64,000 nucleotides of DNA, from contig OZ038460.1 of assembly GCA_964036195.1 (NCBI GenBank), positions 6,637,504 to 6,701,503 on the forward strand, given 5' to 3'. The stretch is from Sphaerolaimus hirsutus (taxonomy: Eukaryota; Nematoda; Chromadorea; Monhysterida; Sphaerolaimidae). Of this stretch, positions 1,079-62,176 are shown in pieces (position 1 is the first letter of the stretch; every line of letters starts with the position of its first letter). The position numbers and the translations under genes were made by a program. The notes beneath the pieces were generated by a model. That model was not told where the DNA came from, did no database searches, and was given only the letters and a program-made list of their open reading frames with translations.

Positions 1079-1965
1079 TAGCATTGAAAAAATCTCTGGG
1101 AGATTTATATTTAAAAAATCTCAGAAAATATAAGATTTTCTGAGATTTTTATTTTTTCCATGATTTTCCAGAGAGATTTAATTATATTTTCTCCTGATTG
1201 AGAAAATCTCTCAAGAAAATCTCTCTATAGTTGTCCATTTTCACCTTCAAATTCACTAGTTGATGTCCTTTTTTGCATATTTTCAGCTATTTTTAACTAT
1301 ATATATTCTAATAAACCCATTTTTGGCTTTTTTTGCACCTATTTTAAGTTTATTTTCTTTTTTTTTCTGTTCTATAACATGAAAGAGCCTATAAAAAGTC
1401 TACCTATCTAAAATACATTCGCTGTACTCAAGTACTTTCAAAAAGAATACATAAAATAGTACTGGTACTTTTTCAGAGGATTACTCAATGTAAATATGTT
1501 TTAACAACTATACAGTTGACTGCATGCTTTGTAAATACAGTTACCAAAATTTGGTGAAAAAAGTGATCTGATAAATGCTGTTCCAACTTCCAATCTTCAC
1601 ACGTAAAAGTAATGTATTCTATTGAGGAAAAATGTACCTAGGTAATTTATATTTTTGTTGATTATTTAGATACTAGGTGGTAGTATGTGGTAGTAAAAAC
1701 TGAAACAACACATAAGGTGCTTAATATCTACTCAAACAAACGCCTCTGGCTCAAACACCTTGAGATATTTACCTATCGATTAAATCATAGGTAATTTAAG
1801 TTGGGAGATTTCCTGAGATTTTTTGAACGGCAAGAGCTTTTTTCAGAGATTTAATTATATTTTCGAAAATGACCCAAGAGATTTAATTATATTTTTTTCT
1901 TGAGAGATTTTCTGAGATAATATTTAATTATATTTTCTCAAAATCGGACATTTTTTTCAATGCTA
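1079..1965. mobile_element. hAT-like non-autonomous element with AAATCTC subterminal words
   Basis: The ends TAGCATTGAAAAAA (1079) and TTTTTTCAATGCTA (1965) are inverted repeats. They are flanked by a perfect 8-bp direct repeat AATGGGAA at 1071-1078 and 1966-1973. The first and last 150 bases are full of AAATCTC/GAGATTT words, often as short palindromes. The centre is AT-rich and encodes nothing recognisable. The 8-bp duplication and TAG-starting TIR point to hAT; no transposase is present, so it must have been moved in trans. Confidence 0.85.
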
Positions 1966-2179
1966 AATGGGAATTTGTTTACACAGGCTGGTGAATGGTG
2001 GGGGCTCGCCCACCCCATCCTCGTTCGCTCGCTCATATTAAAATTGATGTTTTTTGACATGTTTCAATGTGGAACCCCAACTCGTTTTTGACAAATTTCT
2101 GAGTCGAGTCAGGCAAAAAAAACCCTTGAATCTCGGGTCAGGGCCAAATTTTTTAGTCAAGTGGAGTAGAGTAACCCTC

Positions 2180-4640
2180 GAGTCAAGCCAGCGCCATGGC
2201 ATCATTGGCGCTTGGCGCCCTTTTCTGTGGCGCCATCTGGCGCCTGGCGCCATTATTTTGAATGGCGCCATGGCGCCCCTGGTGCTTGGCGCCATCTGGC
2301 GCCTGGCGCCATCTGGCGCCTGGCGCCATTATTTTGAATGGCGCCATGGCGCCCCTGGTGCTTGGCGCCATTTTCGCTGGCGCCATTGGCACCACACAAG
2401 CTGGTTTTCAATGTTCCCTCTGTGAAAACCCATTATTCAGTTTTCAAATTCATTTAAACACTCTGTGTAATCAGCAAAACAGCCACCATCTTTTTTTTTA
2501 TATGGTTCCGCCGGTAGAACACATATTTGAAAACTCTGGTAAAATGCTGCAGACAAAATATTTTTTTTGTGGAATAAGTATGCATTTGTAGGACAAGCTG
2601 TAAGCGGCATGTGATGCAGAAAATTATGCTTGATTTTTGGGACTGTAATGTATATTTTTAGCGCTGTGATACATTTTTTAAATTAATTTGTTTTCTAACT
2701 ATAAATATTTTTTTAAAATTCTGTTTTAAATTGTAGATGATATCTGTCTCACATATATGTCTAGTTTTTTTGTTCTCTTATATTTGATACCATGTTTCGC
2801 AATAGAAGTACAAAGATGATGGAGCAAGTGTAGTAATGCATAAAACATAAAAAAAAATTTTTTAATTACATCCCTGTACCTGTAATTACCACATTATCAC
2901 AGTAAACAGCGCTTATTTTTTCACATAAAAAACAACCACTGAATTCAATAACATTTCCCTAAAACAAATAATGATATTTTTATACAATCAACTTTGTAAT
3001 TTTTTAAAAAATCACAAGTGCAATTCAGACAGCCGATTTTGTATGTAAATGAAAGCCAAAAAAATGAACAACAAGTGAACATTGACTGCGACAATTTCAC
3101 ATTGAATACACTAGCACAAAAAAATCAAAAATTTTTTATTGTATTGTTTTCAAAAATGTTTTTATTTCATAGTAACATGTGTCACAAAACTTAACATAAA
3201 AGTGAACATTTTTGAAAACTCAAAAGTTATTCGGATCTATCCATAGAACCCTGCCATGAGTAGATTTCAACCAGTCTTTCAGTTTCTCTCTCATTTGCTG
3301 GGCATCTCGCAGTTCATCATTGTGATTTTGGACTCTAATCCATTCTCTAATTCATCAAAGCCTGGCGCCAATCTAACTGCATTTATGAAATTTTCAGCAA
3401 TCAAAAGTTTCAAAAATCTATATCTATTAATAAAATGAAAAAAATATATAATTTCTAACTGTTTGGTTGCGTAGACTTTGTTCTTCAAAAGCATGCACAG
3501 GTGGCTTTTCATTTCCTCCCTTGTCAAAGTGATCCGATACATTTGTGCCACACAATTATTTGATAAAATTGTGCAAATAACACACAGCCATAACCAGTTT
3601 GCTGACCCTGTGTAATTCCATTAGCAAAAAAATTGAAATTTTTGTTAGCAGGATGCGCCACCAAGCAGCCAAAATCCAAAAAAATGCATTCTACACAGCG
3701 CCATGCATGGGACAATCTGTAATGCAAGATCATTCATAATCATTGCATGGTCCACACAAATTTCACAACAAGAAATTTAAGCGGTAGTTGTGCCTTTGAA
3801 CCCTTCATAACAGTAGTACCAAGTCCCAGATTCTGTGTTGTTGATAAATGGATGAATTCTTTCATTTTATAAATACTTTTCAAAATTGGTAATAAGTTAT
3901 GGAAACAGGTGACATATGCAGTTGTTGCCTGAAACGTAACCACAGCGACATAATTTTAAAAAAATTTTATTTTATTTTATATAAATCCCAAATTTTCTAC
4001 GACCCTATCATTAGATGCAGCAAAAAATACTGCATCTACAGTGTCAATTTTACATGAACCCATTCATCCAGTGGTTTTTAAAGTATTTTGGAGTAAGTTG
4101 GTGAAATTTTGTAAACTGGTGATGCTGGGCGACGATTTTGCTACTTTTGGTGTGTAAGGCAACACATTTTCACATATGTTCCACAGATATTGAAAACTGG
4201 CATGTACAGCGACGTACAGCGACGTCGCCATACGTCACTTTTCAAAAATGTGGTGTTCACTTTTCAAAAATGTTTTATACATTTGAAAACTAGAATGTAC
4301 ATTTTTGAAAACTACATTATTCAATTTTAAGTTTTCAAAATTGTCTTCAGAGTATTATGTTGGCAACACGTCTAGCGGTGATGCGTCTCCCTACAGTTTT
4401 CAAAAATGTTCTGCAAATGTGAACTTTGAACGGCAAATGTGACTTGCTGAAACCAATATTCACATATGCTGTCACTTATTGAAAAATAAAAGTGCAAATT
4501 GCACACTTTTAAATTCTGTACAGCAACGCGTCGCCTAGGAGAGTTTTCAAAAAGGAACATTGAAAACCAGCAGCCACATTGGATTGGATGGCGCCAGAAA
4601 TGGCGCTAAGATGCCGGATTGAACGCTCATATTTGGACAT
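2180..4640. mobile_element. GGCGCC-type element split by a second TIR element (2399-4573)
   Basis: GGCGCC-rich sequence at 2190-2393 resumes at about 4588 (GGATGGCGCCAGAAATGGCG). Between them sits a unit whose ends are GCTGGTTTTCAATGTTCC (2399-2416) and GGAACATTGAAAACCAGC (4556-4573). That inner unit carries repeated TTTTCAAAAATG words near its ends (3160-3230, 4230-4400). The sequence after 4600 matches the inner part of the GGCGCC element near 57890-58020, which supports the nesting. No clear target duplication was found for the inner unit. No credible coding sequence lies inside. Confidence 0.55.
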
Positions 4641-4984
4641 ATTCAACTGCATTTTCTGCTGAATGATGTCATTTAGATGATATTTAACACATTAATACTT
4701 GTAATTTTTTGTCAGCATTGCAGTTTGGGTTTACGTTGATCGTCATATGCCACACAAACAGCAAATATTCATATATTTTTTATTAGGTTCTTATTTCTCC
4801 AGCTTTCTCTGACCTGGGAGTATTTTGAGGGCGGGGGGTAGTTATCTGATGAGGAAGGGGCTGGATAGTCTATGTATTTATTTACTGTATTTGCTTGAAA
4901 AATTTCACTTGAAAATTTTTTTTTGTCAGATATTCATCATGGGGAACTATATACCTGAGGGGAGGAATTATTAAAGAAAATATG
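4641..4984. other. AT-rich interval between repeats
   Basis: No gene or complete element is visible. It contains the tail of the GGCGCC-type element and a fragment with stretched G runs near 4800-4860 resembling the TACCGTA family. Confidence 0.3.
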
Positions 4985-10381: not shown

Positions 10382-12346
10382 TAGGGTGTCAAATTTCCGT
10401 TTCCGTTGTCCGTTTACGCCTTTCCGCAGGAAAATTTTTTACCTTTCCGTTTTCCGTTTTCCGGCAGCTGAAACATTTTTACCTTTCCGTTTTCCGTTTT
10501 CCGGCAGCTGAAAATTTTTTACCTTTCCGTTTTCCGTTTTCCGGCAGCTGAAAATTTTTTACCTTTCCGTTTCCGTTTTTCCGGCCCATTTTTCCGTTTT
10601 CCGGCTGAAAAATTTTTACCTTTCCGTTTCCGTTTTACCAGGCCATTTTTCCATTTTCTGGCTCGATTTTCAGTTTTCTGGCATTTTTCCATTGTTTTTC
10701 CAATCTGTATTTATCTTCATTTGGCTCATCCCATTGTGTTGTTTTTGTCTCTTGGAGCAGCATTGACAACTGGGATTTCAGGGTCAGTGAAACAGGTGCT
10801 GTGAACCCAATTGGGTCATATGCTGACACCAATAATTTATTCAAGTTTTGTCTGGTTGGTGTTGTGACCTGTCAATTTGCAATTGTGGTGTTGATATTGC
10901 CAGCATGTCCATTCAGTGATTTTATTTCATGCCCATTACTGCGACAATTTTATTCACTTTTGGACTCCTGTCATTTTCTGCTATTTTATTCATGACTGAT
11001 CTGGAGTTTGACAGCCATTCCCTCATGTTCATAGAACATTGGTTAAATAAAGCTTTGACTTTGTAATATAGTTCTAAAGCTTCAACTTCATTCGTGACAC
11101 TCATGATGAAGTTATCAACGTAAATGTTGTTTATTATCATCGCCAACTGGTTTCGTTCCCCTTCATTTTCTTCATATTCATTCATGTTGTTTATTGTCAC
11201 ATTTAAATGGTATTTTATGACTGCTCCCAAAATTGCTGGGCTGCAGACAAGTCCAAACAGTACACATTTAAAACAAAGTACTATTAAGTTATTTTCAGTT
11301 ACTGGTTTTGAGGCATCTTTCAGCCAGAAAAATCGTGTGTAGTCTCTAGCTTGGTCATGCAATCCTATTTGCAAAAATGCCTTTTCAATATTGGCAATTA
11401 ATGCTAGATTGCCTGCCCTGAACCTCAGGAGTAGGCCCAGTGCTAATGGTGTTGTAATTGGTCCTCTAAAAAGGCACTCGTTGAAACTGGGCTTACCTCC
11501 ATCGTACATGATTCTGCATGATGTCAATTTGTCCGGCGTGATTACTGGCTGGTGTGGCAGATAATGAATCCCCTTGTTGTCTGTTTTGTCGTCACAGATC
11601 TCAATTATTCCCTTTTCTAGTTGGTCGTCCAAAACTTTCCGGTATTGTTCAAATAAGTTTGGATCTTTGTTGAATCTTCTTATCAGTGATTTAAACTGCA
11701 CCAAGGCTTCTGCTTTTCCCATGGGCAGGTCACTGATACTCTCTTTATACAGCCAGTCAATATAGTATTGTTTGTTGTTGTCGTTGAATTTTATGCTATT
11801 TATTATCATCTCCTCTGCAATGTTGTCATCAATTGCATAGGGGTCATCAGTGATTCCCACTGCTTCTAGACTGTGAAACTGTCATAGTGTTTCCTTTCCT
11901 ATGGCCACTATGGCTACTTTTTGATGATTTTTTGTTGGTCCAGTTAAGCTTGAACTACAAGTGAAGTTACAGGCATAATCCATAGTTGCAGAATTTACAG
12001 CTACCACAATCAAAGCCAAACAGGCAAACCTGCATGCAGGTTTTCCTTCTGCAAATTTGTCTATTACCATGCTAATTTCACTTCTTTTTTTTCCGTTTCC
12101 GTGAAAATTTTGCTTTCCGTTTTCCGTTTTCCGGCATTTCATTTTTCCGTTTTCCGTTTTCCGGCCGACAATTTTTTTTTACCTTTCCGTTTTCCGTTTT
12201 CCGCTGAGTGATATTTTTTTACCTTTCCGTTTTCCGTTTTCCGGCAGAAATTTTTTTTTACCTTTCCGTTTTCCGTTTTCCGTAAAGTGAAAAAATTTTA
12301 CCTTTCCGTTTTCCGTTTTCCGTAAAAAAATTTTTTTGACACCCTA
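10382..12346. mobile_element. hAT-like element with TTTCCG arrays carrying a BEL/Pao pol fragment
   Basis: The TIRs TAGGGTGTCAAATTT (10382) and TTTTTTGACACCCTA (ending 12346) are flanked by a perfect 8-bp duplication ATTATGAC at 10374-10381 and 12347-12354. Arrays of TTTCCGTTTTCCG run inward from both ends (10396-10640 and 12085-12330). Between them lies a minus-strand BEL/Pao polymerase fragment without LTRs. Either the element captured a retrotransposon piece and moved with it, or a BEL element inserted and lost its ends. The intact TIR and TSD fit the first reading at least as well. Confidence 0.8.
10635..12142 (-). pseudogene. BEL/Pao reverse transcriptase fragment
   Basis: The reading frame from 11860 to 10922 has 312 codons with typical Pao RT sequence. 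It shows the N-terminal LP.G.AEALV region, a PITTP-like segment and a palm motif YVDN at about 11110-11121. In active members the last position is Asp (YVDD), so one catalytic metal ligand is replaced by Asn. A second frame, 10844-10635, carries YDPIGFTAPV, the conserved Pao motif after the RT. Upstream residues (12142-11882) lie across a stop. There are no LTRs, gag, RNase H or integrase. It is a dead fragment. Confidence 0.8.
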
Positions 12347-13050: not shown

Positions 13051-13865
13051 TGAATTATCCCCCCTTGAATTATCCCCCCTTTTCTGATGGTGAAAAGTCA
13101 CAAAAACTCATTTCATAATGAATACCGTATTACCTCGAATTATCCCCCCTTGAATTAACCCCCCCCCCTCGAAATACCCCCTTAAATTTCGGCTGAGGAA
13201 ATAATAACCCCCCCCCCCCTCGAAATATCCCCCCTAAAATAGAGCGTAACGTGAACGTACATGACAAATACCGCAGTTTGTGATCTGTACTAGTGATGGA
13301 AAAGCGCCAGGAAAAATGGCGCCATTCAAAATAATGGCGCCGGGCGCCAGAGGGCGCCAGAGAAAATGGCGCCAGGCGCCAATGGCGCCACGGCGCCATC
13401 TGAAAAAATGGCGCCGGGCACCAAAGGGCGCCCGAAAAAATAACGCTGGGCGCCTAAATGGCGCCAACGATAAAAGACACTATTTTAGCAGGTATATCAT
13501 AACAGAAGCTTTTTTAGAAGAGCAATATGTTACCGTATATGCTCTAAATACCCCTTGAATTAATTCCCCTTCGAAATACCTAAGGTCTGAGCAAGCTGGG
13601 GAAAAATAACCCCCACTCGACACCCCCGTCTGTAATAAGGTACATAAACACATCATGTTTGCAATGAATATGATCTTTTAATGGCTGCCAATTTACATTG
13701 CAGCTATATGTACCGTATTACCTCGAAATATCCCCCCTTGAATTAACCCCCCCCCTCAAAATGGGCTGAGGAAACAATAACCCCCCCCTCGAAATATCCC
13801 CCCCTTTGGAATGATGTACCCCATGTACATAATAAATACGTCATGTATGCAATGTACATGATGTA

Positions 13866-14118
13866 TACCGTATTTCCTCGAAATACCCCCACCCCCCCCT
13901 CAAAATGGGCACTATGAATTTGTGGTCCGGGAAATGCATAACAGATGTTCAAAACACTTACTGTGTTACATTAGAACATCGTTTATACTATCTACATCCT
14001 TATATAAGGCTGTAAAAACTCTTAAATGGTGGTTATTGTTGCATTTTTCACGTTTTTCTCTCAAAATTTTCACTCTTAAAAAATAAACCCCCGGGGGGTA
14101 ATTCGAGGAAATACGGTA
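13866..14118. mobile_element. TACCGTATTTCC element with demonstrable TA target duplication
   Basis: The ends are TACCGTATTTCCTCGAA and TTCGAGGAAATACGGTA. It sits in the middle of a second TACCGTA-family unit (from about 13711 to 14371). The relative at 51152-51585 has the same point uninterrupted (GATGTATATTACTG near 51321). Filled against empty site shows duplication of TA only. Confidence 0.75.
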
Positions 14119-14581
14119 TTACTGTTAATTTGCATTGCAGCTACACATAGACTAGTTTGTGTAGCTATCTACGTTTTTATGTCCAAATATATCCTGTTTG
14201 GACACATTTATTACCTGTTTTGGGTATGCAAATGCCTACTATTTACTACAATCCTTACGAAAATTTCTGACGAAATAATAAAAAAAAACCTCGAATTAAC
14301 CCCCTCTCAAATTTTGCTGGCGAAATAATTAACCCCCATGGGGGTATTTCGAGGTAAGACGGTATTTCCTCTAAATCCCCATAGGGGGTTTATTTTTCAG
14401 AGTGAGAATTTTGAGGGGGTTTAACGAGGGGGGTATTACAAGGGGGTATTATTTTGCCAGAAATTTTCGATGGGCTTTTACCTACCCAAAACTGGTGATA
14501 AAAGTAACAAAACAAGATATATTTAGATGTATCAGATGTATTTAGAAGGTTACACAAACTAGTCTAGTGTGTGGCTGTGAT

Positions 14582-15462
14582 TAGTGATGGAAAAGCGCCA
14601 GAGAAAAGGGCGCCAGGCGCCAATGGCGCCATGGCGCCATTCGGAATGTGGGCGCCAAGCGCCAAGGGCGCCACGGGAAAAGGGCGCCAGGCGCCAAGGG
14701 CGCCATGGCGCCATTCGGAATGTGGGCGCCAGGCGCCAATGGCGCCATAGAAAGAGGGCGCCAAGCGCCAAGGGCGCCATTTAAAAAATAGGGCGCCAAG
14801 CAAAATAAGTGTGTACAGTACCCTGAGTGTTCTAAAAACATTTTTCTAGAAATTTCGAGCACACATTTACGTGTTTATTCACTTTCTCCAGGATGTAAAT
14901 AATTAACAAAAGTGAGACAAACCCATTTAGCATAACATCATACCCCCCGTTACATTCAATTCAAACACGATGAAAATTGTCATTTTACAAAAAAAATTAT
15001 TCAGTTCATATAACACAAATTAGGTTCTATTGCTTCCTGCTCACAAATGTTTTCTGGAAATGGACAAAAACGGTAATATGACAATTTGAATCCATTGATT
15101 ATGGGTTTGCAAGTTCGACGGTTCATCATTCTCAACTTCTGATCAGTCAGATGCGTCTGATGAACCGATGGACGAAAAAAATTGCACCCACTCTTAACCC
15201 TTCATCCATTTTAATGGCGATTTTCGATTATCCACTGACGGTCACCTTGTAACCATGCTGGCGCCATTTTGGCGCCCCTTTAGGGCAGGGCGCCACAGAA
15301 AAAGGGCGCCAAGCGCCAAGGGCGCCATGGCGCCTTTCAGAAAGTGGGCGCCAGGCGCCAGGGGCGCCACAGAAAAAGGGCGCCAAGCGCCAATGGCGCC
15401 ATGGCGCGGCGCCCTTTGGCGCCCTCAAATGGCGCCAGCGCCATGGCGCCATTCCATCACTA
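14582..15462. mobile_element. GGCGCC hAT-like element, 881 bp
   Basis: TAGTGATGGAAAAGCGCC to GCGCCATTCCATCACTA, flanked by a perfect 8-bp duplication GCTGTGAT (14574-14581, 15463-15470). About 200 bases at each end are GGCGCC words spaced by short A-rich or T-rich tracts. The centre (15060-15240) matches the centre of the copies at 21122-22026 and 61385-62176. Open frames reading GAMAPF/WAPGA-type peptides are by-products of the array. Confidence 0.85.
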
Positions 15463-15684
15463 GCTGTGATGCATATCGGCATCGATAAATACATCATGTA
15501 CATTGTGTACATGATGTAACTTTTTTCCAGACGGGGGTATTTCGAGGGGGTGTACTTTTTCACTCAGCTCGAAAATACCTGGGGGTATTTCGAGGGGGGG
15601 TTTATTCGAGGGGGGTATTTCAAGGAAAAATGATACATTGACTGCTTTGTGTAACGATCAACGATAAAATGTCCAAAAATGTCC

Positions 15685-16123
15685 TACCGTAAATTTTCTT
15701 ATTCGACGACAGTGTTCCAATAATACGACATCTCCAATAGTGCGACAGGTTTGGGCACGTCGTGTGAGAATAACGCGACACTCTCCAATAGTATGACACT
15801 CTTCAATAGTGCGACACCTGAGAAAAAATTAAAAACAACGTAACGATGTCGCAATCTGCGGAAGCCGCGGATTCCGCGCTTTTGGTTCACAAGGGTCGCT
15901 GGGCAGTTCGCAAGAGCGCCAGCCGCGTCACAACCGCCACTATTTACCATGTGCATTGCTTTACTATGTCATGCTCACGTTTGAGTTATGTGCACAGTGA
16001 CGTTGTTGATTTGATGAAAAATATAATACGACACTCTATAAATGCGACATCTCCAATAGTACGACACCTAAAAATGTGCTGAAAAAAAAATACGACTGTC
16101 GTATTATTAGAGAATTTACGATA
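15685..16123. mobile_element. TACCGTAAATTTTC variant element
   Basis: The ends TACCGTAAATTTTCTTATTC and AGAGAATTTACGATA are inverted. Subterminal words (TCCAATAGTGCGACA and relatives) repeat inward from both sides. This subfamily uses words unlike the C-run type but shares the first seven terminal bases. Confidence 0.65.
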
Positions 16124-16632
16124 TTAGGTCACATTTATTCTCAGAATTTTGGCGCCACTTCTGGCGCCATCCAAAACAATGGCGCCGGGCGCCAAATTGG
16201 CGCCAGCGAAAATGGCGCCAAGCGCCAAGGGCGCAATGGCGCCATTCGAAATAATGGCGCCAGGCGCCAGATGGCGCCAGAGAAAAGGGCGCCAAGCGCC
16301 AATGGCGCCATGGCGCTGGCGCCCTTTGGCGCCATTAAAGGGTGCCAGCGCCATGGCGCCATTCCATCACTAATCTGTACTATGCAGAACACACGTTAAA
16401 ACTGATGATTAAGTGACGTTAGGGAAGGGTTTTTGTGTATATGCAGTAATATAAATATGCCTAAAAACACATATAAATCGATATGTGATTGTTCGATTTT
16501 TCTACGTCTGCGTATGGGGAATTTCCAAAAATTTCTGGCGAAATAATAGACCCCCCCCCCTCGAATTATCCCCCCTCAAATTTTGCTGGCGAAATAATAA
16601 ACCCCCTGGGGGTATTTCAAGGTAATACGGTA

Positions 16633-20878: not shown

Positions 20879-22274
20879 GATTACAGCTCGGGCGTAAAAT
20901 TCCAGCGTAAAATTCCATCGCAAAATTGATTACATAAAAGTGGATGATGATACAGGTCTGCAATTTTTCATGGAGAATATGTTTATCAATACCTTCATTG
21001 TGTCCGAGAAGTATCGTCCAAGGTCATTGCTATTTGATTGTGGAAATTCAAAAATTTCTATTTTACGCTGGAATTTTACGCCAGCTGAAGAAAAGTCAAT
21101 TCTACGCCAGGTGATTGCATGTAGTGATGGAATGGCGCCATGGCGCTGGCGCCATTTGAGGGCGCCAAAGGGCGCCGCGCCATGGCGCCATTGGCGCTTG
21201 GCGCCCTTTTTCTGTGGCGCCCTTGGCGCCTGGCGCCCGCATTCTGAAAGGCGCCATGGCGCCCTTGGCGCTTGGCGCCCTTTTTCCGTGGCGCCCTTGG
21301 CGCCTGGCGCCCTGCTTTAGAAGGGCGCCAAAAAGGCGCCAGCAGGGTTTCACGGTGAGTGCTGTGTAAACGAAAAAAAATGAAAAACGCATCCGTAGAT
21401 GATCTAAATTCGCCAGAAAAATGGACGGAGTGGTGTGAGTGGGTGGAAATCTTTCGTCCAAACGGTTCATCAGATCTGTCTGACGGATCAGAAGACAAGA
21501 ATGATAGACCGTCTAACTTGCAAAATCATAAATGAACGGATTTAAATCGTTGCAATTAGGAAGCATTGTTTGGAAAGGTCTATTTGTAATGAATGGATTG
21601 TTGTCAAATGACAATTTCCATTGCATTTGATTTCGTCATGTGGATTTTATTCAAAAAAAATTTGTTGCTAGCCTTGTTTTTGTTCATTACATCCTGGAGA
21701 ACGCGAATTAAGAAGTGAATGCGCGTACAATGGTGCTGTAGAAACATTTTTAGCACACGCATGGTGTTGTAGGCACTTTTTATCCTGGCGCCCTTGGCGC
21801 CTGGCGCCCTATTTTCTAAATGGCGCCATGGCGCCCTTGGCGCTTGGCGCCCTCTTTCCGTGGCGCCCCTGGCGCCAGGCGCCCACTTTCTAAATGGCGC
21901 CATGGCGCCCTTGGCGCCTGGCGCCCTTTTTCTGTGGCGCCCTTGGCGCTTGGCGCCCACTTTCCGAATGGCGCCATGGCGCCCTTGGCGCCTGGCGCCA
22001 TTTTTTCTGGCGCTTTTCCATCACTAATTGCATGCACTTACATAGCGTAGAATTGATTTTTCTTCAGCTGGCGTAAAATTCCAGCGTAAAATAGAAATTT
22101 TTGAATTTCCACAATCAAATTGCAGTGACTGTGGATGATGACTCTCGGTTACAATGAAGGTATTGATAAACATATTCTCCATGAACAATTGCAGACCTGT
22201 ATCATCATCCACTTTTATGTAATCAATTTTGCGATGGAATTTTACGCTGGAATTTTACGCCCGAGCTGTAATCG
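20879..22274. repeat. Palindrome with ~240-bp arms, split by a hAT-like insertion
   Basis: The left arm 20879-21121 and right arm 22035-22274 are near-perfect inverted copies (CGATTACAGCTCGGGCG against CGCCCGAGCTGTAATCG at the tips). Once the 21122-22034 insertion is removed almost no loop remains. GGCGTAAAATTCCAGCG words repeat near the tips. Such a structure would form a giant hairpin or cruciform. Confidence 0.8.
21122..22026. mobile_element. GGCGCC hAT-like element, 905 bp
   Basis: It runs from TAGTGATGGAATGGCGCC to GGCGCTTTTCCATCACTA with a perfect 8-bp duplication ATTGCATG (21114-21121, 22027-22034). It lies in the opposite orientation to 14582-15462 and 61385-62176, sharing their central 21360-21780 sequence. 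No coding capacity. Confidence 0.88.
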
Positions 22275-43800: not shown

Positions 43801-45133
43801 TTGGGGCAGACGCGCGACAACCAAGAGGTCCGTTATAAAAAAGCAGATGTTTTTGTTGTGTTTTTCAACCTAAAAGAGCGTGCGCATCCGCGTGCGTGAC
43901 TACTCTGCGCAAAAAGGGGTGGGAATATTCTCTTCTGCAGTTGTGGTTTTTCATGTAGTCCGCAGTGGGACAGGTGAAAAGATAAGTCATGTGAAAAGTA
44001 AAGTTCCAACTGACAAGAATTTTCATGGACAAATTTACTTGTCACTTCGCTTACCTTGTTTTGTAGTACTCGTGTGAAAGGCCCCGAGACTTTGGCGCCA
44101 AGCGCAAAATGGGCCATATGACGCTTTTTACACGCCTAGCACCAAGCGACAATGATGCCACAGCAAAATGGCGCACAGCGACAAGAATGCCATAGCGCTT
44201 TTTGCTTTGGCGCTGGCGCCAGGCGCTTAGGCCTATCACCTGTAATGAGGTATAACGTCTTTAGGCATAGCGCCAAGTAGTGCCCGCATCAATTCGGCAG
44301 TGTGCTGCAATGGCGCTTTTACATCACCACTGTTTACCACCATGCCCACAAAAACACATCTCACTTCTCCTTTCCAACACCCTTCCCCCCCTCAGGTGGA
44401 CGTGGCCGAGTGCGCGGCCGAGATGGACACGGACGCGTGCGGCGTCGGCGGCGGCGACCGGATGGCGTCGTCGGGCGACCGCGCCGGCGACAGCGACATC
44501 GAGCCCGACGGCGACAGGTCGGCCGACCGCACGCCGCCCATGCGCATCGACGACCAGCAGCAGGAGCGCATGCGCGTACAGGTCGGGTTGGGGGTCTCCA
44601 GGTCAGGGGTTGTCTATGGCTACCCCCAAATCCGCCATCTATCTATCCCGGAGGCGAAATTTTTGGATACTATCCCCTGACCCCCCAGATATACTATCTA
44701 TATGAACCCCCTATAAATCTACAAAACCCCTGCTCCAGGTTTTACTTCCGATGGGTTGGATGGATGGTAATCGCCACTTTAAAGAGATCAATAGTTGAAT
44801 TTTCCTGGGCTTTACTTTATCTAGACTTTTTCTATTTCTATTTCTTGGCGTGACCCCGCCAGATGCATAGATGCACTGGGGGCGGCTCTGTGATTGTGCG
44901 GTCGTACCGCCGATGTAAGCCTACAACTCATCTATACCCACTAGTCATGTAGACCCGCTCCGCGCTCCATGTAAACTCCATCGTGTAAATCAGCTGCCGC
45001 TGTAAGAGCGATTGGCTGAAAATACGCAAACACATTTAAAATTTAATATATTCATGTTCAGGTTTGTACGTAACGCCACTTATTGCAGGATTGGCAGATG
45101 AAACAAGAATGTCCGGAGCACATGGAAACCTGA
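31450..45133 (+). CDS. HMBOX1: HMBOX1/HOT1-type homeobox transcription factor
   Basis: Seventeen coding exons: 31450-31519, 32242-32412, 33331-33513, 33709-33839, 35763-35873, 35940-36041, 36735-36908, 37656-38050, 38255-38505, 40086-40337, 40878-41024, 41665-41808, 42328-42479, 42672-42835, 43749-43827, 44396-44581, 45089-45133. All phases agree and the sum is 2757 bp (918 residues), about twice the vertebrate protein. The order is an N-terminal dimerisation-like helix pair (FTVEQLELI, residues 6-45), Ser/Ala/Gln-rich linkers with polyQ (37858-37935), a POU-specific-like domain (about 440-525), a divergent homeodomain (about 573-645) and an acidic tail. HMBOX1 proteins bind DNA in the nucleus, including telomeric repeats in vertebrates. 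The last exon and the 13/14 junction are the least certain. Confidence 0.85.
31742..31939. mobile_element. TATACTCGG MITE in HMBOX1 intron 1
   Basis: TATACTCGGTGAACCGC to GTCCGCCGAGTATA, with the inner ACCGTAATTTAATGAATAAA. A second copy in intron 14 (43477-43671) shares the inside; relatives with TATACTCC ends occur at 45231-45467 and near 53594. The TA ends suit a Tc1/mariner-like target. Confidence 0.7.
32531..32947. mobile_element. hAT-like element with GATCCC arrays, HMBOX1 intron 2
   Basis: TAGGGTTCAAACGGGA to TCCCGTTTGAACCCTA; flanks GTGTTTTG (32523-32530) and CTGTTTTG (32948-32955) are an 8-bp duplication with one mismatch. GATCCC hexamers fill both subterminal regions. It shares its TIR with the GGGACC element in intron 9. 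Confidence 0.85.
34153..34631. mobile_element. hAT-like element with GATAGATAGCTGA words, HMBOX1 intron 4
   Basis: CAGGGGTCTCCAAAAAG to GGAGACCTCTG, flanked by GTATACAG and GTATGCAG (one mismatch). GATAGATAGCTGA and G/C runs recur inward from both ends. Copies at 42991-43431 and 44604-44732 belong to the same subfamily. Confidence 0.82.
34788..35333. mobile_element. hAT-like element with AAAAAGCGC arrays, HMBOX1 intron 4
   Basis: TAGGGATCG to GGCCATCCCTA, flanked by a perfect 8-bp duplication GTAATAAG (34780-34787, 35334-35341). AAAAAGCGC/GCGCTTTTT words fill the ends. A related right end (GGCCATCCCTA) is at about 35584-35594. Confidence 0.85.
36227..36689. mobile_element. hAT-like element with ACGCACAGAA words, HMBOX1 intron 6
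   Basis: A perfect 8-bp duplication TTGAAGTG (36219-36226, 36690-36697) brackets inverted ends with ACGCACAGAAAC arrays (GTACGCACAGAAACTCGG at the left; GGGTTTCTGTGCGTAATGAG at the right). The extreme ends are imperfect inverted copies. Confidence 0.75.
36982..37417. mobile_element. hAT-like element CAGGGCCGTATCC, HMBOX1 intron 7
   Basis: CAGGGCCGTATCCAGG to TTGATACGTCCTTG with a perfect 8-bp duplication GTCACAGA (36974-36981, 37418-37425). It is inserted into a hairpin element whose halves lie at about 36962-36981 and 37418-37536. G/C runs and a short GGCGCC patch (37233-37315) lie inside. Confidence 0.8.
37656..38505 (+). other. HMBOX1: Exons 8-9: polyQ linker and POU-specific-like (HNF-p1) domain
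   Basis: Exon 8 carries a Gln tract coded mainly by CAG (37858-37935) and ends in RDPAELEELLK. Exon 9 continues NGEESAISELKRFIQ and the helix-turn-helix TTVGAMTGVSQPYVSKFLNG, then RIFIWYLN. This is the atypical POU-specific fold of HNF1/HMBOX1 proteins: an iksylqqh-like helix, then the tGlnQShlS-like recognition helix with Q, S and the following S retained. In HNF1 this domain contacts DNA together with the homeodomain. Confidence 0.85.
38653..39712. mobile_element. GGCCCTACACACACTAGTTG element, HMBOX1 intron 9
   Basis: GGCCCTACACACACTAGTTG then ACATCGACAC at the left pairs with TGTCGATGTCAACTAGTGTG then TGTGGGGCC at the right. A GGGACC hAT-like element is nested inside. A relative lies at 47232-47453. 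Confidence 0.75.
38704..39592. mobile_element. hAT-like element with GGGACC arrays
   Basis: TAGGGTTCAAACGGGACC to GGTCCCGTTTGAACCCTA, flanked by a perfect 8-bp duplication GTTCTGAG (38696-38703, 39593-39600). Long GGGACC arrays occupy 38735-38900 and 39385-39570. Its TIR equals that of the GATCCC element at 32531. Confidence 0.9.
40086..41024 (+). other. HMBOX1: Exons 10-11: divergent homeodomain
   Basis: Helix 1 is RPAALRLLERYFVENAYPD and helix 2 RIEIANECNSLLY, close to HMBOX1. Helix 3 is VVAAWFNTRRR. The near-invariant WFANRR of this family reads WFNTRR here. The residue at position 51, normally Asn that reads adenine, is Thr (about residue 637), with Asn one position earlier. An intron splits the domain between helix 2 and helix 3. 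Confidence 0.8.
41974..42214. repeat. Foldback repeat with GAAGTGA words, HMBOX1 intron 12
   Basis: Left arm GCCAGTTCCGCAAATTGAG and right arm CTCAATTTGCGAAACAGGC are inverted. Inward, AGAAGTGA/TCACTTCT words repeat. Confidence 0.7.
42478..42672. repeat. CTGTAAAATG hairpin element, copy C, forming HMBOX1 intron 13
   Basis: The arms GTGCCAGTCGCGCAC and GTGCGCGACTGC are inverted, with AGAGCCCTGG, AAAATGTCACGCAAAGTG and TGGCAACCGAG/TTGCCA inside. The open frame before it (ending about 42479) and after it (from 42672) are in phase if the hairpin is removed, using CTG/GTGCCA as donor and CTCCCAG/GGC as acceptor. TTTACAG/GG at 42652 is an alternative acceptor but gives the wrong phase with these donors. 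Confidence 0.7.
42991..43431. mobile_element. hAT-like element CAGGGGTCTCC, HMBOX1 intron 14
   Basis: CAGGGGTCTCC to GGAGACTCCTG, flanked by CATGTATT and CATGCATT (one mismatch of 8). TATCTATCC words and C-runs lie subterminally. Reverse orientation to 34153-34631. Confidence 0.8.
43477..43671. mobile_element. TATACTCGG MITE, HMBOX1 intron 14
   Basis: TATACTCGGCCGACCGC to GTCCATCGAGTGTA; the inside matches the intron 1 copy. Confidence 0.65.
44604..44732. mobile_element. Short hAT-like element, HMBOX1 intron 16
   Basis: CAGGGGTTGTCTATGG to AAAACCCCTG, 129 bp, with a perfect 8-bp duplication CTCCAGGT (44596-44603, 44733-44740). It lies 22 bp after exon 16. Confidence 0.82.
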
Positions 45134-52248: not shown

Positions 52249-55200
52249 ATGTCACCCAACCCACTACATCAACTGATCCTACCATTGTTCACTTTGAGCC
52301 TGCTCAATGTGTTCACGGTGGGCAGCGGCACGCTGTTCGGCGCGTCCGACGAATTGCGAGTGATAAACACGGACACGAAGACGTTCCCCGAGCCCATGCA
52401 CCCCGGCTGGCCGGTGGTCATCGATATTGGTATCTATGTTCATAGTATGAGTAGTTTGGATGTTAAGGATATGGTTGGTATAAAAGTTGGGTGGGTTTTT
52501 CTGGAGCTGGCGATATGATTGATGCCACGTCTCGATCTGTTATACCGTATTTCCTTGAAATACCTACCACCAGGGAAAATTTCTTCAGTGTGTCTTTTTT
52601 TTTGGGGGGGGGGGGGGTGGTGTGAATTGATCGAGGAGGTATTTCGAGTGGGGTTTATTATTTTGCCGGAATTTTCCCGAACTTATTATTTTGCTGGCGA
52701 AATAGAAACCCCATGGGGGTATTTCGAGGTAATACGGTATTCACAAATTTTCACTACCTAGTTCATTATCTTATTGATGTCTAAATAACTCGCAGTCATT
52801 CATGCTGGACATGTACTTCCGCATGAGCTGGGTGGACTCGCGGCTAATCGGACAGCCGAACAAAACAGAAGACGAACAACTGACTCTACAGGTAGGTTCA
52901 GCCAAGTTGCTACATCGTATGTATCACAATCTCAGATGGACGCAGGAAATTTGGACGCCCGATATCTACTTTGTGAATGCAAAGTTGACGCGCACGCACA
53001 ACGTGATCAAGCCGAACTTGGCGTTGTGGATCGATGAGAGCGACGGCACCGTGGCGTACAGCACCAGGTAGCGCTTTGTGATGGAATGGCGCCGCGGCGC
53101 CATTGCTGCTTGGCGCCATTTTTCCCTGGCGCCATTTTTGAATGGCGAAATGGCGCTGGCGCCATTTTTTGTCGCGAGTGTGTGTGAAATGGTGCGAGTG
53201 TCTCGGGGCTAGCAAAAATACCTTCTCCACACTCAGGGTGAGCGCGCAGGTTGCCTGCCCTATGGACCTGGCCAGCTACCCACTGGACAAGCAGTTGTGC
53301 GCTCTGCAAATGATGAGCTGTTCGTTCATTTTCCCATTTAACATCTTTTTGCACACTTTTTTATAATTTTTTTTGTCCCTCCAACAGACGGGTACCCGGA
53401 ACGCATGCTGCAGCTGCAGTGGTTCTATTATGAGCCGATAGACAAGAACCCGCTTATACAGCTGCCGGAATTCAGTTTGGAATCCATCACGCCGATCATG
53501 TGCAACGCGTCCTACGAGTACAGCAAGACGCGGAGAGGATCGAGATTTGGTTCCGTTTTGACGGACATTTTTTTTGTTACACTTGAATTGAGCTATACTC
53601 CACAGACCGCACGCGGTGCGTTTTTCTGACAGAAAACTTCATCATGACGTCATTGGTTATAACATCAAAATTGTTCCAACAACAAGAAAAAAACATTTGC
53701 CGCTTTTACTCGACTCCGCCCTTTTCGTTTTAAAATATTTTCTTTTGTTATTTGTTGTGCCGATCGAAAAAAGTGTCCGACTAAGTGAATTTCACGCCTA
53801 GACCCAACTTAACGAGAAACTTCAAACCACGCAGCCGATTTCGGCTGCATCGAGGCCCGTTTCTACTTCATCCGGCAGATCACCTATCACCTCGTGCAGA
53901 CGTATTTCCCATCCGGTGCGATCATAATCATATCATGGGTGTGCTTTTGGATCGACCCGAACGCCGTACCGGCCAGGGTCACGCTCAGTTTTACCACGCT
54001 GCTCACGCTGACTACTATGGTTAGACTACGGTTGTTAAAATGTACGTACATTTACTCAAAAAATACGCAGTAAATATACATTTACATAGGTATACTTTAA
54101 AAAAGTAATGTACTCACTTTTACGCGTACATTTTAAACGTACACGCGTACAGAGAAAAAGCATTTATTGTTGCTAATATCACAATTTTCTGTTGCAAAAA
54201 AAAGAAAATTTTGAAAACTCACTCTCACATGTAAAAAGTAGTAGCTTTTAGGTTTTCTAGGGGAAAATTACTCGCTTTTAAATTTTCCTGGGAAAAAAAG
54301 TATTTTACATTTTCTATACTTTGTGGTGAGTACAAAAATACTTACATTGGCAAATATTTTTAAAATTTTTTCAGTAAATCTAACAACTCTGGGTTAGACT
54401 GGTGCCGATGTCAAACTATTTCTGTCAAGTGACACGTTTTTGATACACTTTATGGTTTTGTGTCAAGTGACAAATGACAAGTGAAGTTTCGGATTCTATG
54501 GAAATGTTTTAGTGGCAGTTTGGTAGCTTGACCTATGTGAACAACAGTAAAACAGGGTGCCTCATGCTTACCCCATACCCCCATTATTTTTCCTGTTATT
54601 CGTTGCAATCATTAGAATATGAGTGATTAAAACAAATAAAATGGAAGTAGAGGTTACCGTCTTTCATCGCTCAAAACTTTGAAATCAAACTTTACAACCA
54701 TTATCCCAATTTTAATTTTATCAGTTCCTGTTTAAAAAAGTGTTCTCCACTTAAAATCTCTCACACTTTCAATCCACCCCCAAAAACCCCTTTACAGGGT
54801 GCGGGCATCCGTTTCACCCTGCCCGCAGTTTCATATGCCAAAGCCATCGACCACTGGTTCTTCGTGTGCACAATTTTCATGTTTTCCAGTTTGGGTGAAT
54901 TTGCGTGGGTCAACGTTTACAACAGGAGATCACTTTCTTGTGCCCAAAAAGCCAAGGATATGTTGGACAGATTGGCTGCGCAGGAGAGCGACACAAAGTT
55001 CGATAATATGGGTGAGGTGTGGGGGCAGTCCCGCACCCAGTAGAGTGTGAAGTGTCAGACTGAATTTTTGACATTTTCATTTACATTTCACAAATTTGTA
55101 TGACATTTGCCAGATTTTTATGACTTTAAACCTGGCATTTGACACTTAACGCCATTGAGAAAATGATAGGTTTCATCAATGATAGCTTTGTTCATAGCAC

Positions 55201-57695: not shown

Positions 57696-59095
57696 TAGTG
57701 TTGGTATGGCGCCATGGCGCTGGCGCCCTGAAATGGCATCAAAGGGCACCAGCGCGTTGGCGCCCTTCTCTGTGGTGCCATCTGGCACCTGGCGCCATTT
57801 TTTTGAATGGCACCATTGGCGTTTGGTGCCATTTTCGCTGGCACCAATTTGGCGCCCAGCGCCATTGTTTTCGATGGCGCCGGAGATCATGCCAAAATGC
57901 AGGGATGAATGGTTACATCATTCCATATTCAACTGCCTCTTCTGTGGAATGATATCACTTAGATGATATTTTACACAGTCACCATTGTAATTTGTTGCTA
58001 GCACTGCAAGTTTGTGTTCATGTTGTTTGTTTTATACCACATGCAAACTGCAAAACTTGAAACATGACCCACAATGACGGGGAGGAATTATTCAAGCAAT
58101 ATGGAATGCCTATACCATATTTCCTCAAAATATGCACCCCCCCTAAAATGGACACTATGAGTTTATAAACCCCCCTCGAAATACCCCCCAAAAAACAAAA
58201 CGCAGAACAGAGGTAACAAATAATGACAGTGACTTTGAGTTTTTGCCGTCTACATAAACACCTTCCCGGTCACGTCCGGCACCCTATTTTTGATCGTACT
58301 TGTGACACACTATCTCCAGTTCTAGGGTGCGCCAGAAGCTGAAACTTGGGGGAGATATTGGCGCAACCCCCCTCTACCTCGCATGAATCAGGGGGGTCGC
58401 GGCGACAACTCTCAGGGTGGGTCGCCCTAAGTGCAAAAATTTTTTGTGGCTTTTTTGGTGTCCCACAGCAGGTCCGGCACCCCTCCGGCACGGTCAGGTC
58501 GCCGCGACCCCCCTAATTCATGCGAGGTAGAGGGGGGTTGCGCCAATATCTCCTCCAAGTTTCAGCCTCTGCGGCACCCTAGAACTGGGTATAGGATGTG
58601 AGAAGTAAAATCAAAAAATGGGTGCCGGACGTGACCGGGTGTTTACTTATAAAAGTCTATACAGTCTTATAAATGGCAGTTTTTCTTGCATTTTTCAACG
58701 TCTGTGTACGTTACAAACAACAATTTAGTAAAATGTACCCTCTCAAATAAGTACCCTCGAATAAGTCTCCTTGAATAAACCCCCTCAAAACGTGTTGACA
58801 AAAAAATAACCCCCTGGGAATAAAATATTCATGATAAGATGAGTTTTGTGGCATGAGTCACCATCAGAAAAATGGTATCCTACGTTGCTCCTCTATAAAT
58901 GCTTCTTTGATGATATTTATACAGGCTGAAACAGTGAAGTGTTTGTTGGCATCATTGTTTCTGGTGCTCTTTGGTGCCCAGCACCATTTATTTAGATGGC
59001 GCCGTGGCGCCATTTTCTCTGTCGCTATTTGGCGCCCAGCACCAATTTTTTGAATGGCACCTGGCACCATTTTTACTGGCGCTTTTCCATCACTA
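57696..59095. mobile_element. GGCGCC-type hAT-like element, 1.4 kb
   Basis: Left TAGTGTTGGTATGGCGCC, right GGCGCTTTTCCATCACTA, with a perfect 8-bp duplication CTCACAGG (57688-57695, 59096-59103). The interior has an inverted pair around 58262-58640 (GGTCACGTCCGGCACCC/GGGTGCCGGACGTGACC) and TACCGTA-like debris. No transposase is visible. Confidence 0.82.
58262..58642. repeat. Inverted repeat GGTCACGTCCGGCACCC
   Basis: Left CCCGGTCACGTCCGGCACCC and right GGGTGCCGGACGTGACCGGG are perfect 20-base inverted repeats. Inner arms GGTGCGCC and GGGGGTTGCGCCAATATCTC are also paired. Probably a separate TIR element nested in 57696-59095. Confidence 0.75.
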
Positions 59096-59412: not shown

Positions 59413-60438
59413 CAGTGTTGCAAAAAGGTATTTATGTTTACCCAAAATACCCCATTATTCAGGTATTTATATTTGTGTTTATGTTTACGCTTTCCAAAAA
59501 TACCATTTCATTTTGTTACGTTTTCCTGGCACAATTATCAGAGAAAATTGAAAAAATATGTTACATGGAACCGTATTTTATGACAAACGTAGTGTGTAAT
59601 GATGAGTTTAACATGCTTTAACGTGAAGAGAGTGCCAATTTCGCAAGTGGAGGCACATGTTTAAAATTTCACTGACTTTCGATTTTTTTTTCAATTGAAG
59701 CCCTTCAATTAAATGAAGCCCATTTATTTCACAAAATACCGAAATAAACCTGTAAACAAATGTGTGGGCCACATTATTGTGTGGGATGGGAACTGGGGTG
59801 TCTATTGGATGCTTAAAATTTCAACCATTTTTAATCAGCACATTTAGAATGGCATTCAACCCCGCTGGAAAATCACTTTTAAAATATTATTCTGTCATCT
59901 AAAATTATAAAAATGTGACAACAGCGCATTTCCCGTATTTCCTCGAAATACCCCCTCGTTCAACCCCCCTCAAAATTTCCATTCTGAAAAAATAAACCTC
60001 CTGGGGGTAATTCGAGGAAATACGGTAAAGGAACATAAAGTGTCAAAGTTAAAGTAAGGTTCAGTTATAAAATCTTTTCTTTTTTTTGTTTTGATTGACA
60101 TTTTACATGACATTTGACACTTTACTTTACACTTTACAGCGCTCAGGACCGGCACCTTCCGGTAACTATTCAATATACCAAACCCATCATTCTAAATTTA
60201 AGAAATATGTAAGCAGATAATGTCGAATGAGATCAAAGGAACATCTATAATATTGTAAAAACTGTGAAAACTTTTTCTCTGACAGCACTCGATAAAATTT
60301 TTACGTTTATGTTTTATTTTATGTTTTCCTAGGTATTTTAAAAATACCCTACGTTTTAGTATTTATACTTCTGAATTCTAAAAGGTATTTACATTTATGT
60401 TTACATTTTCCAAAATTACCTGTATTGTAACAACACTG
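59413..60438. mobile_element. CAGTGTTG hAT-like element
   Basis: CAGTGTTGCAAAAAGGTATT to TGTATTGTAACAACACTG, with a perfect 8-bp duplication AGTATACC (59405-59412, 60439-60446). TTTATGTTTACG words repeat subterminally. A worn TACCGTA piece (59933-60027) and a hairpin element (60030-60165) lie inside. Confidence 0.85.
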
Positions 60439-60539
60439 AGTATACCAGTATTTTTTTAGGGGTAACGTACATGTGTTTACACAGTTATTAAGTATCTGTA
60501 CTTATCGAGTAAACATAAACACGTTTTTACAACTATGGT

Positions 60540-60780
60540 AAGGTGATGGAAAAGCGCAAGAAAAAAGGGCGCAAAGCGCCAATGGCGCCATGGCATCATT
60601 CCTCATAAGAGCGCCAGGTGCCAAGGGCACCACGGAAAGGGCGCCATTTTGAAACAAAGCGCCAGTGCCAGGGACCACAGGAAAAGGGCGCCAAGCGCCA
60701 CTGGCGCCATGGCGCAGCGCGCTTTGGCGCCCTTAAATGGCGCCAGCGCCACAGGGTCAAAACACCTATAGTATACCTAC
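60540..60780. mobile_element. GGCGCC-type remnant
   Basis: GGTGATGGAAAAGCGCAAG at the left, then GGCGCC words to about 60752. The right terminus is not preserved. Confidence 0.5.
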
Positions 60781-61384
60781 AAAAACCTACTGAAAAAACC
60801 CGTCCAAACATATATTTTCCGGTTTGGATTTGGCAGTTGAAAATGTGGTATGCAGAAATTTTCGGTTTCAGTGTGTGTGGCCCCATTGTCAAATCATTTT
60901 TATATCATTATATTGTCCAATCTTTTCACGTCGAGATGTCGTCGGATCTTTTTATGTCAACATGTCGTCGGATCTTTCTACGTCAGATAGCTGTAATTCA
61001 AAAATCTTTTTACGTCAAAACTTTTCGCGTCAAACATTCCACGTCATCATTTCACGTTACATGCTCGAGCTCTAATTCCGGCTTAAATGTCTCGAATATT
61101 CGTGATTTTTGTCAATATTATATTTGGTCAACAGATTTTACGGCTATGTATATATTGTAAATACAAAAAAAGCCTTTTCCTATGAAGTCAACAGATTTAT
61201 TGCCACGTATATATTGTAGATACAAAAAAACAACAATTTCCCATGAAGTCAAAACAAAGCACACTGATAATTTCGCACTATAAAAGCAGCGTCCCGGGTT
61301 GCTGCGAGCCACACAAACACCACAGCCAGCCAGTTTACAGGACTACTAAAACGAAGGTAACTCGTGCGGCAGGGCTGAGGCAAC

Positions 61385-62176
61385 TAGTGATGGAAAAGCG
61401 CCAGAAAAAAGGGCGCCAGGCGCGAATGGCGCCATTGCGCCATTCAGAAAGTGGGCGTCAAGCGCCAAGGCGCCATAGAAAAAGGGCGCCAGGCACCACG
61501 GAAAGAGGGCGCCAGGATAAATAAGTACATACAACACCCTGCGTGTGCTAAAAGTGTTTCTACAGCACCCTAGTACATGCATTCATACTTAATTTGCGTT
61601 CTCGAGGGTGTAATGAACAAAGACAACACTAGCAACAAAAAAAATCAAGTAAAATTCACATGACAATTCAAACACAATGAATATTGTCATTTGACAACAA
61701 TCCATTCACTTCAAATTGACTTTTCCAATCAATGTTTCCTCGAAATGGACAAAAAACGGAATTGCAACGATTTGAATCCGTTGATTATTTTGCAAGTTCA
61801 ACGTTCTATCATTCTCGTCTTCTGATCTGTCAGACACATCTGATGAACCGTTGCACAAAAGATTTCCACCCACTCACACCACTTCGTCCATTTTTCTGGC
61901 GAATTTAGATCATCCATGAATGCGTTTTTCATCTTTTTTTCCATTTATGCAGCAATCACCTTGAAACCCTGCTGGCGCCTTTTTGGCGCCCTTTAAAAGC
62001 AGGGCGCCACGGAAAAAGGGCGCCAAGCGCCAACCGCGCCATGGCGCCTTTCAGAATGTGGGCGCCAGGCGCCAAGGGCGCCACAGAAAAAAGGCGCCAA
62101 GCGCCAATGGCGCCATGGCGCGGCGCCCTTCGGCGCCCTCAAATCGCGCCAGCGCCATGGCGCCATTCCATCACTA
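61385..62176. mobile_element. GGCGCC hAT-like element, 792 bp
   Basis: TAGTGATGGAAAAGCGCC to GCGCCATTCCATCACTA with a perfect 8-bp duplication GAGGCAAC (61377-61384, 62177-62184). The centre (61550-61975) matches 15060-15240 and, reversed, 21350-21780. Confidence 0.88.

Follow-up and report, generated by a model that had tools for sequence, protein, structure and literature searches.

What are the short words that crowd the ends of so many small elements in this stretch of the nematode Sphaerolaimus hirsutus? In the 64-kb window (the whole stretch of contig OZ038460.1 analysed here), several of the units with short inverted tips and 8-bp flanking repeats carry rows of one short word near their ends, and the word differs between families. 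We consider, with a probability of about 0.75, that these units are non-autonomous hAT-like transposons and that the word arrays are sites bound by the BED domains of hAT transposases, several specificities lying side by side in an unusually regular form. The initial annotation had described them as possible runaway arrays of binding sites. Reiterated binding motifs are indeed the likeliest meaning, because the position, the extent and mostly the polarity of the arrays resemble what has been published for Ac, Hermes, Tol2 and Herves, because one word contains the Ac motif, and because the words fall within the broad CGG, CGC and AT-rich classes of hAT BED domains. That the arrays are runaway is unproven.

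The ends of the units were examined by scanning for inverted tips that start with YAG or TA, match in at least 9 of 11 bases and are flanked by exact direct repeats. Eleven such pairs had repeats of 8 bp, against 6, 4, 1, 1 and 1 pairs with repeats of 5, 6, 7, 9 and 10 bp, respectively. This excess depends on exact repeats, because the counts with one mismatch allowed (82, 37, 15, 21, 7 and 1 pairs at 5 to 10 bp) do not have it. A looser scan, with 8 of 11 tip bases and at most one mismatch in the target-site duplication (TSD), gave 44 pairs, of which 15 were units of the initial annotation and 29 were chance or array-internal pairs. The units at 36982 and 36227 were picked up via their duplications and not by the looser scan. 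All 17 units listed in the initial annotation have 8-bp duplications as it had claimed, 14 exact and three (32531, 34153 and 42991) with one mismatch. Its claim of matching hAT-like ends holds for 16 of them. These 16 and the additional unit 18861-19796 have a short terminal inverted repeat (TIR) of the YAGNG type or similar, with variants at 1079 (TAGCA) and 54027 (TACGG/CAGAG). The claim fails at 36227, where the termini (AGCC.../CGGG...) are mismatched; the duplication of that unit, TTGAAGTG, occurs again at 38046. The target preference of hAT elements is nTnnnnAn. In the left TSD copies of the 17 units, counted by hand, T stands at position 2 in 11 and A at position 7 in 9, fitting this preference. 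It could be argued that part of the list is not hAT and consists of unrelated repeats or other element types between chance 8-bp repeats, as the mismatched termini of 36227-36689 and the 29 discarded pairs might suggest. However, seven units (1079, 10382, 13291, 14582, 21122, 38704 and 61385) combine an exact TSD with tips identical at 11 of 11 bases, and we regard this explanation as highly improbable. The units are listed in Table 1.

Word enrichment was assessed in 16 units (13291 and 18861 were left out) by comparing the top 6-mer of the ends, up to 600 bp each, with the highest count in 200 shuffles. The top 6-mer lay above the shuffle maximum in 10382, 14582, 21122, 32531, 36227, 38704, 57696 and 61385, and narrowly so in 34788 (13 vs 11). 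The unit at 1079 was a near miss (13 vs 14), and 34153 and 36982 tied with the maximum. About half of the unit kinds have no significant word. The proposal that each subfamily has its own word is thus sound for GGCGCC, TTTCCG, GGGACC, GATCCC and ACGCACAG, judged by shuffles, and for GGTGCC, judged by density; it is marginal for AAAAAGCGC and AAATCTC, and it does not extend to six units with non-significant words. In this window every word family other than GGCGCC has a single unit. Words equally common outside TIR-bounded units, which the initial annotation had named as evidence against its proposal, were not seen. Each of the eight words has a higher density in the 11 word-bearing units chosen for comparison than in the remainder of the window, which includes wordless units and relics (per kb, GGCGCC 10.0 vs 2.0, CGGGAC 3.0 vs 0.19, and AAAAAGCGC 0.57 vs 0.14). 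Among 227 GGCGCC words, 174 stand inward of a tip of the TAGTG(A/T)TG type, at most 300 bp from it (30.7 vs 0.91 per kb).

The arms of 18861-19796 hold 27 GGCACC/GGTGCC words, and we considered whether GGTGCC is a plain CpG decay product of GGCGCC. The window has 42% GC and a CpG observed/expected ratio of 0.96, and CpG depletion outside the arrays is slight (0.92). Decay is unlikely for 18861-19796, because the words of its right arm form repeated blocks and nearly all share one direction (12 against 1; in the left arm, 6 against 8), and is possible for part of 57696.

The arrays have a constant place. Of the 16 ends of eight units, 14 have their first word core after 11-14 bp and the other two after 24 and 55 bp, and a distance of 103-240 bp from a tip takes in 90% of the words. 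No copy of the top 6-mer occurs in the central 281-305 bp of 1079, 14582, 21122 and 38704, and the long central parts of 10382 and 57696 have few copies (1 in 1365 bp and 3 in 800 bp, respectively). The ends of 57696 and 13291, both of the GGCGCC family, are alike, with no interior match longer than 150 bp among those listed. Ac transposase is reported to bind AAACGG cooperatively in the terminal 200 bp, and about 200 bp per end are needed (PMC3260210); Hermes needs about 220 bp of an end and Tol2 200 and 150 bp (PMC10368747). AAACGG itself occurs 13 times per 260-bp arm of the TTTCCG unit, all on one strand, and 0-2 times per arm in the other units (13 units counted). Thirteen copies per end could be an ordinary array rather than a runaway one. 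As reported, maize Ac/Ds elements of the Ds2 class share with the present units the 8-bp TSD, an 11-bp TIR, subterminal AAACGG regions of about 200 bp and unrelated filler. The present units differ from Ac/Ds in their several coexisting word families, regular blocks, mostly single polarity and animal-like host, and no autonomous partner of theirs was seen. A short motif is reported at both ends of Tol2 and Herves, at bp 15-22 of the Herves right end (PMC3143072), and at the left end of Herves three tandem repeats of 100 bp each start at bp 146; these are single elements and not a set of families with differing words. On microarrays, BED/Hermes domains favoured CGG, CGC/GCGC or AT-rich motifs, with subterminal matches in four hAT elements (PMC8097297). 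These preferences of hAT-derived CGG-binding proteins cover the broad classes of the present words, although the classes are wide and the proteins (18 host and four hAT) come from other species.

The same position bears on the idea that some other factor targets the arrays, such as an anti-silencing protein encoded by the element, like VANC of the Arabidopsis VANDAL elements, with motifs differing between families. VANC21 is reported to bind, and VANC6 to target, different short motifs that accumulated in tandem repeats (PMC5735166). The family-specific, tandemly amplified motifs of VANDAL evolve together with the protein and are a precedent for coevolution of amplified motifs with an element-encoded protein. 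However, VANDAL belongs to another superfamily, and its motifs lie away from the tips, in introns and upstream regions, whereas the present words start after the outermost 11-14 bp and thin out by about 240 bp. No such gene was seen among the 226 scanned open reading frames (ORFs) of the window. We think this explanation quite improbable.

The polarity of the arrays gives further information. The tips are inverted, yet most arrays are direct: of 12 units compared, nine have left and right arms that match better directly than inverted, and these nine belong to five of the eight word families (five GGCGCC units, GGTGCC, TTTCCG, GGGACC and GATCCC). When sense is defined as the direction of the tip word, read inward from each tip (for TTTCCG it was set by choice as CGGAAA), the sense/antisense counts at the two ends were 17/0 and 2/17 for GGGACC, 12/0 and 3/8 for GATCCC, 20/0 and 0/19 for TTTCCG, 12/1 and 6/8 for GGTGCC, 5/0 and 4/3 for AAATCTC, 3/0 and 3/0 for ACGCACAG, and 0/5 and 2/5 for AAAAGCG. 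Palindromes were sought in bp 11-30 of each end, a range chosen after the published Hermes LE11-27 (LE and RE, left and right end) was known. A palindrome score of at least 6 was found in 8 of 28 ends of 14 representative units (13 kinds, since 34153 and 42991 are related), and the rate in random 20-mers of the window was 0.037. The palindrome is present at one end only in 8 of the 14 units and never at both ends, and four additional GGCGCC copies agree with this pattern. Besides the cases in Table 1, GATCCC has CGGGATCCCGATCCCG at its left end, and others occur in GGTGCC, GGCGCC and AAGCGC. The TTTCCG case, AAAAAATTTTTT, consists only of A and T, and the AAGCGC case is mostly A and T runs. 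The tip score was never reached by 20-bp windows of the unit's own arm in TTTCCG, GGGACC, AAATCTC and 54027, and was reached by 5% of them in AAGCGC, 11% in GATCCC, 19% in GGTGCC and 37% in GGCGCC. A sense tip word meeting an antisense array makes a palindrome. Palindrome and polarity are therefore not independent, because the former arises in part where a direct array borders on an inverted tip word.

This arrangement resembles that reported for Hermes. There, the quasi-palindrome LE11-27 is bound cooperatively by two BED domains, the LE site STR1 runs one way and STR2-7 the opposite way (antisense), RE STR1-5 are sense, and the authors regard the unequal ends as important for activity; the left end of Tol2 likewise has a palindrome immediately inside the TIR (PMC10368747). 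We infer that the Hermes RE sites are numbered from the RE tip and hence are direct within the element. Hermes thus has a first-site palindrome at one end only, with mixed direction there and uniform direction at the other end. It differs from the present units in its sites (AAGT/AAGC, reported as 17 and 14 per end), which are not in blocks and of which the inner ones are largely dispensable. Hermes-like asymmetry is clear in GGGACC and GATCCC and partial in GGTGCC and AAATCTC; TTTCCG has it by polarity only, and GGCGCC by palindrome and direct arms. It is not found in all word families, as ACGCACAG is symmetric and the AAGCGC arms are inverted.

Within the arrays the words are grouped. TTTCCG blocks contain three words at 7-bp steps and mostly recur every 40 bp, CGGGAC blocks contain four words at 6-bp steps and are spaced 32 and 41 bp alternately, and GGCGCC blocks are spaced 42 and 32 bp alternately. 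When lags of 20-110 bp were ranked in 14 units, three GGCGCC copies, GGTGCC, GGGACC and AAATCTC had each of 31-33, 41/42 and 73-75 bp among their six best. A pitch of 32 + 41/42 = 73-75 bp is thus common to four word families. In random pairs of non-array stretches all three lags were found in 2 of 1500, and two or more in 86 of 1500; this control is lenient, because none of the stretches is a tandem array and because 32 and 41 add up to 73. The three lags were not all in the top six in TTTCCG (40), GATCCC, AAGCGC, ACGCACAG, 54027, 59413, 34153 and 42991, and in the decayed GGCGCC copy 57696 none was among the twelve best. In a scan of the window for further units of this pitch, the best 30 rows all lay within or beside known GGCGCC or GGGACC stretches. 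The long spacers of the GGGACC and GGCGCC blocks are also alike, sharing 5.71 of 12 bases where permutation gave 3.25 (p 0.0011), in a test that used 14 of 15 12-bp GGCGCC gaps (one holding a word was dropped) and three GGGACC spacers taken by hand, the likeness having been noticed beforehand. An earlier test with four chosen GGCGCC spacers gave 7.58 of 12 (p 0.00055). Because of the shared pitch and the similar long spacers, some families may derive from one common ancestral array in which the word was swapped.

These features must also be weighed against neutral tandem growth, a serious rival. The word beside the tip might have multiplied through slippage or through errors of gap repair following excision, filler might later have split the array, and most copies would have no binding role; direct polarity and equal pitch would be by-products of block duplication and common descent. 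Block duplication is evident from the tandem units of higher order (40, 73 and 74 bp), one array split in two yields direct arms for free, and the likeness of the GGGACC and GGCGCC spacers hints at common descent. The inner Hermes sites, reportedly dispensable for the most part, and a similar tendency to reiterated words in a TA-flanked repeat family of this window point the same way. However, neutral growth predicts neither the Ac binding motif in one word nor array lengths near the needs of Ac, Hermes and Tol2, nor the same arms around different interiors. We judge it unlikely on balance.

If the words are transposase-binding sites, the following mechanism is plausible. Transposases encoded elsewhere would bind, with an N-terminal BED zinc finger, the rows of words in 100-240-bp subterminal arrays. 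The outer 11-14 bp would be the cleavage tip, the next word the first BED site, and the inner rows would help to capture transposase. At one end the tip word would face the first array word as a palindrome, as at the Hermes left end, and at the other end all words would follow the direction of the tip word, as at the Hermes right end. The ends would be unequal because the rows mostly run one way at both ends, and this polarity would serve end pairing. From one related family to another, re-amplified short tandem blocks would bring in a different word, following a change of transposase; the tip, and in some families the 32 + 41/42-bp pitch, would be kept. A more far-reaching version, which we put forward only tentatively, is a hAT chassis with exchangeable docking words. 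Related families in one genome would keep the tip, the Hermes-type one-way layout and the 32 + 41/42-bp pitch, and the whole array would swap its word at once, leaving each family dependent on a different transposase. Because 32 and 41/42 bp are about 3 and 4 helical turns, this pitch would bring the blocks onto one face for an oligomeric transposase; the 40-bp pitch of TTTCCG does not correspond to whole helical turns.

Several points weigh against the binding-site interpretation. No hAT or BED domain was found among the 226 ORFs of at least 68 aa scanned with Pfam. Seven of the 16 units (1079, 34153, 36982, 42991, 44604, 54027 and 59413) have no word above the shuffle maximum. Direct arms are lacking in three of the eight word families, with AAGCGC and ACGCACAG inverted and AAATCTC mixed, and the unequal end of GGTGCC and AAATCTC is mixed, not antisense. 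Among five GGCGCC copies the words are better conserved than the spacers (0.902 vs 0.768, a gap of 0.134). This is only suggestive: uniform mutation and realignment, simulated at like divergence, gave gaps of 0.075-0.089 (standard deviation 0.03) with maxima of 0.13-0.15, and the simulation thus weakens word conservation as proof of selection. The TA-flanked family seems to carry reiterated CCTCGAATTA words too, which suggests that in this genome repeats tend to grow near element ends more generally. Three hexamers sufficed for Ac in one reported study, some Ds1 elements without hexamers move, and the tested Ds-like (Ds-l) elements with hexamers were immobile (PMC3260210). In Hermes, about 70% of activity was reportedly kept when inner LE sites were mutated, the RE sites had no BED contacts in the RE-RE structure, and the authors considered extra transposases bound inside the ends unlikely, which speaks against a need for deep arrays (PMC10368747). 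Because inner Hermes sites are largely dispensable and three Ac hexamers were enough in one study, the deep rows may exceed the needs of transposition.

Subterminal binding sites as such are already known. New here are the arrays that run in the same direction at the two ends, seen in five of the eight word families, the one-ended palindromes and the pitch shared across four word families. In the open-licence literature, judged by titles or the start of abstracts, we found no description of a set of hAT families with differing words, common pitch or common polarity. Hermes reportedly distinguishes its left and right ends by BED sites, and the authors only suggest the same for other hAT elements (PMC10368747). 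Several hAT families with different words, mostly common polarity and partly common pitch would be natural replicates for this question of end recognition, and bear on how a parasite could change about thirty binding sites together with its enzyme. Short interrupted repeat cassettes (SIRC) of Arabidopsis also combine short direct repeats and spacers and are proposed to originate from the interior of miniature inverted-repeat transposable elements; they have 2-8 repeats of 10-29 bp, and the accessible text of that report mentions neither a hAT link nor a binding role (PMC10342631).

Table 1. Word-bearing and related units, in coordinates of the window.
Unit	Position	Strand	Features
AAATCTC unit, probably non-autonomous and hAT-like	1079..1965		TSD AATGGGAA; left-end palindrome AAATCTCTGGGAGATTT at bp 12-28; weak array with 73/32/41 pitch
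TTTCCG (=CGGAAA) unit	10382..12346		TSD ATTATGAC; 13 + 13 AAACGG on one strand; 40-bp blocks; reverse-transcriptase ORF inside
GGCGCC family	13291..16372	+	TSD ATCTGTAC; unit 14582-15462, also GGCGCC family, nested within
GGCGCC family	14582..15462	+	TSD GCTGTGAT; pitch 74/42/32 bp
GGTGCC unit	18861..19796		Tip TAGTGATGTAAAGGCACC; imperfect TSD; absent from the earlier list of coordinates
GGCGCC family	21122..22026	-	TSD ATTGCATG
GATCCC (=CGGGAT) unit	32531..32947		One-mismatch TSD; first 16 bp of tip common to 38704
CAGGGGTCTCC unit	34153..34631		One-mismatch TSD; no significant word; related to 42991
AAAAAGCGC unit	34788..35333		TSD GTAATAAG; tips 8/11; marginal word; arms inverted, not direct
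ACGCACAG unit	36227..36689		Exact 8-bp direct repeat TTGAAGTG; inverted arrays; termini mismatched; hAT status doubtful
CAGGGCCGTATCCAGG unit	36982..37417		Exact TSD GTCACAGA; imperfect TIR (13/16 bases by hand); no significant word
GGGACC (=CGGGAC) unit	38704..39592		TSD GTTCTGAG; pitch 73/41/32; right-end palindrome CGGGACCGCGGTCCCG at bp 12-27
CAGGGGTCTCC unit	42991..43431		One-mismatch TSD; no significant word
CAGGGGTTGTC unit	44604..44732		TSD CTCCAGGT; no significant word
TACGGTTGTT unit	54027..54391		TSD GGTTAGAC; tips 8/11; no significant word; left-end palindrome AAATGTACGTACATTT at bp 12-27
GGCGCC family, decayed	57696..59095	-	TSD CTCACAGG; ends common with 13291
CAGTGTTG unit	59413..60438		TSD AGTATACC; no significant word
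GGCGCC family	61385..62176	+	TSD GAGGCAAC

One-ended or tipless GGCGCC relics, absent from the initial annotation, lie at about 2.2, 9.6, 12.6-13.0, 17.6-18.3, 53.1, 56.6 and 60.6 kb, and a further TTTCCG relic at about 28.2 kb. Relatives of the tips were also sought in viral contigs, where exact 18-mer and 16-mer scans gave 1 and 25 loci. These were judged unrelated because inspection by eye of the 90 bp inward revealed no word array and because 23 of the 25 have one similar sequence in common.

ORF matches to protein families indicate that the window is eukaryotic and animal-like. The Pfam matches are to reverse transcriptase, RNase H, integrase, neurotransmitter-gated ion channel, HNF-1 N-terminal/homeodomain and protein kinase; no Rfam match and no tRNA was found in the window. 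The ORF at 10925-11881 within the TTTCCG unit matches RVT_1 (E 7e-5, under Pfam's cut-off); its translation reads as BEL/Pao type, captured or inserted. Retrotransposon-like ORFs in several frames lie at 5642-8210 and are Ty3/gypsy-like by our own reading. An HNF-1 N-terminal ORF (38205-38645) and a homeodomain ORF (39908-40468) flank the GGGACC unit, which may be intronic because they lie on both its sides. A transmembrane match to the neurotransmitter-gated ion channel (54651-55040) adjoins unit 54027-54391.

Other repeats are found nearby. The TA-flanked family has tips CCGTATT(T/A)CCTCGAA at 8975, 13125, 13713, 13868, 25188, 28316, 51154, 55219 and 59933 and reverse tips between 9364 and 60011; TA precedes 8 of 9 of the former and follows 7 of 8 of the latter. 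Reiterated words of CCCCCTCGAATTA type, about 15-19 bp, stand near these tips, which were counted singly. A minisatellite with a 24-bp period and 12.7 copies, open on the minus strand, lies at 184-492. At 55860-57480 and 60910-61060, TTTTACGTCA and TTTCACGTCA words are scattered in both orientations, some in long palindromes, and possibly belong to another element family.

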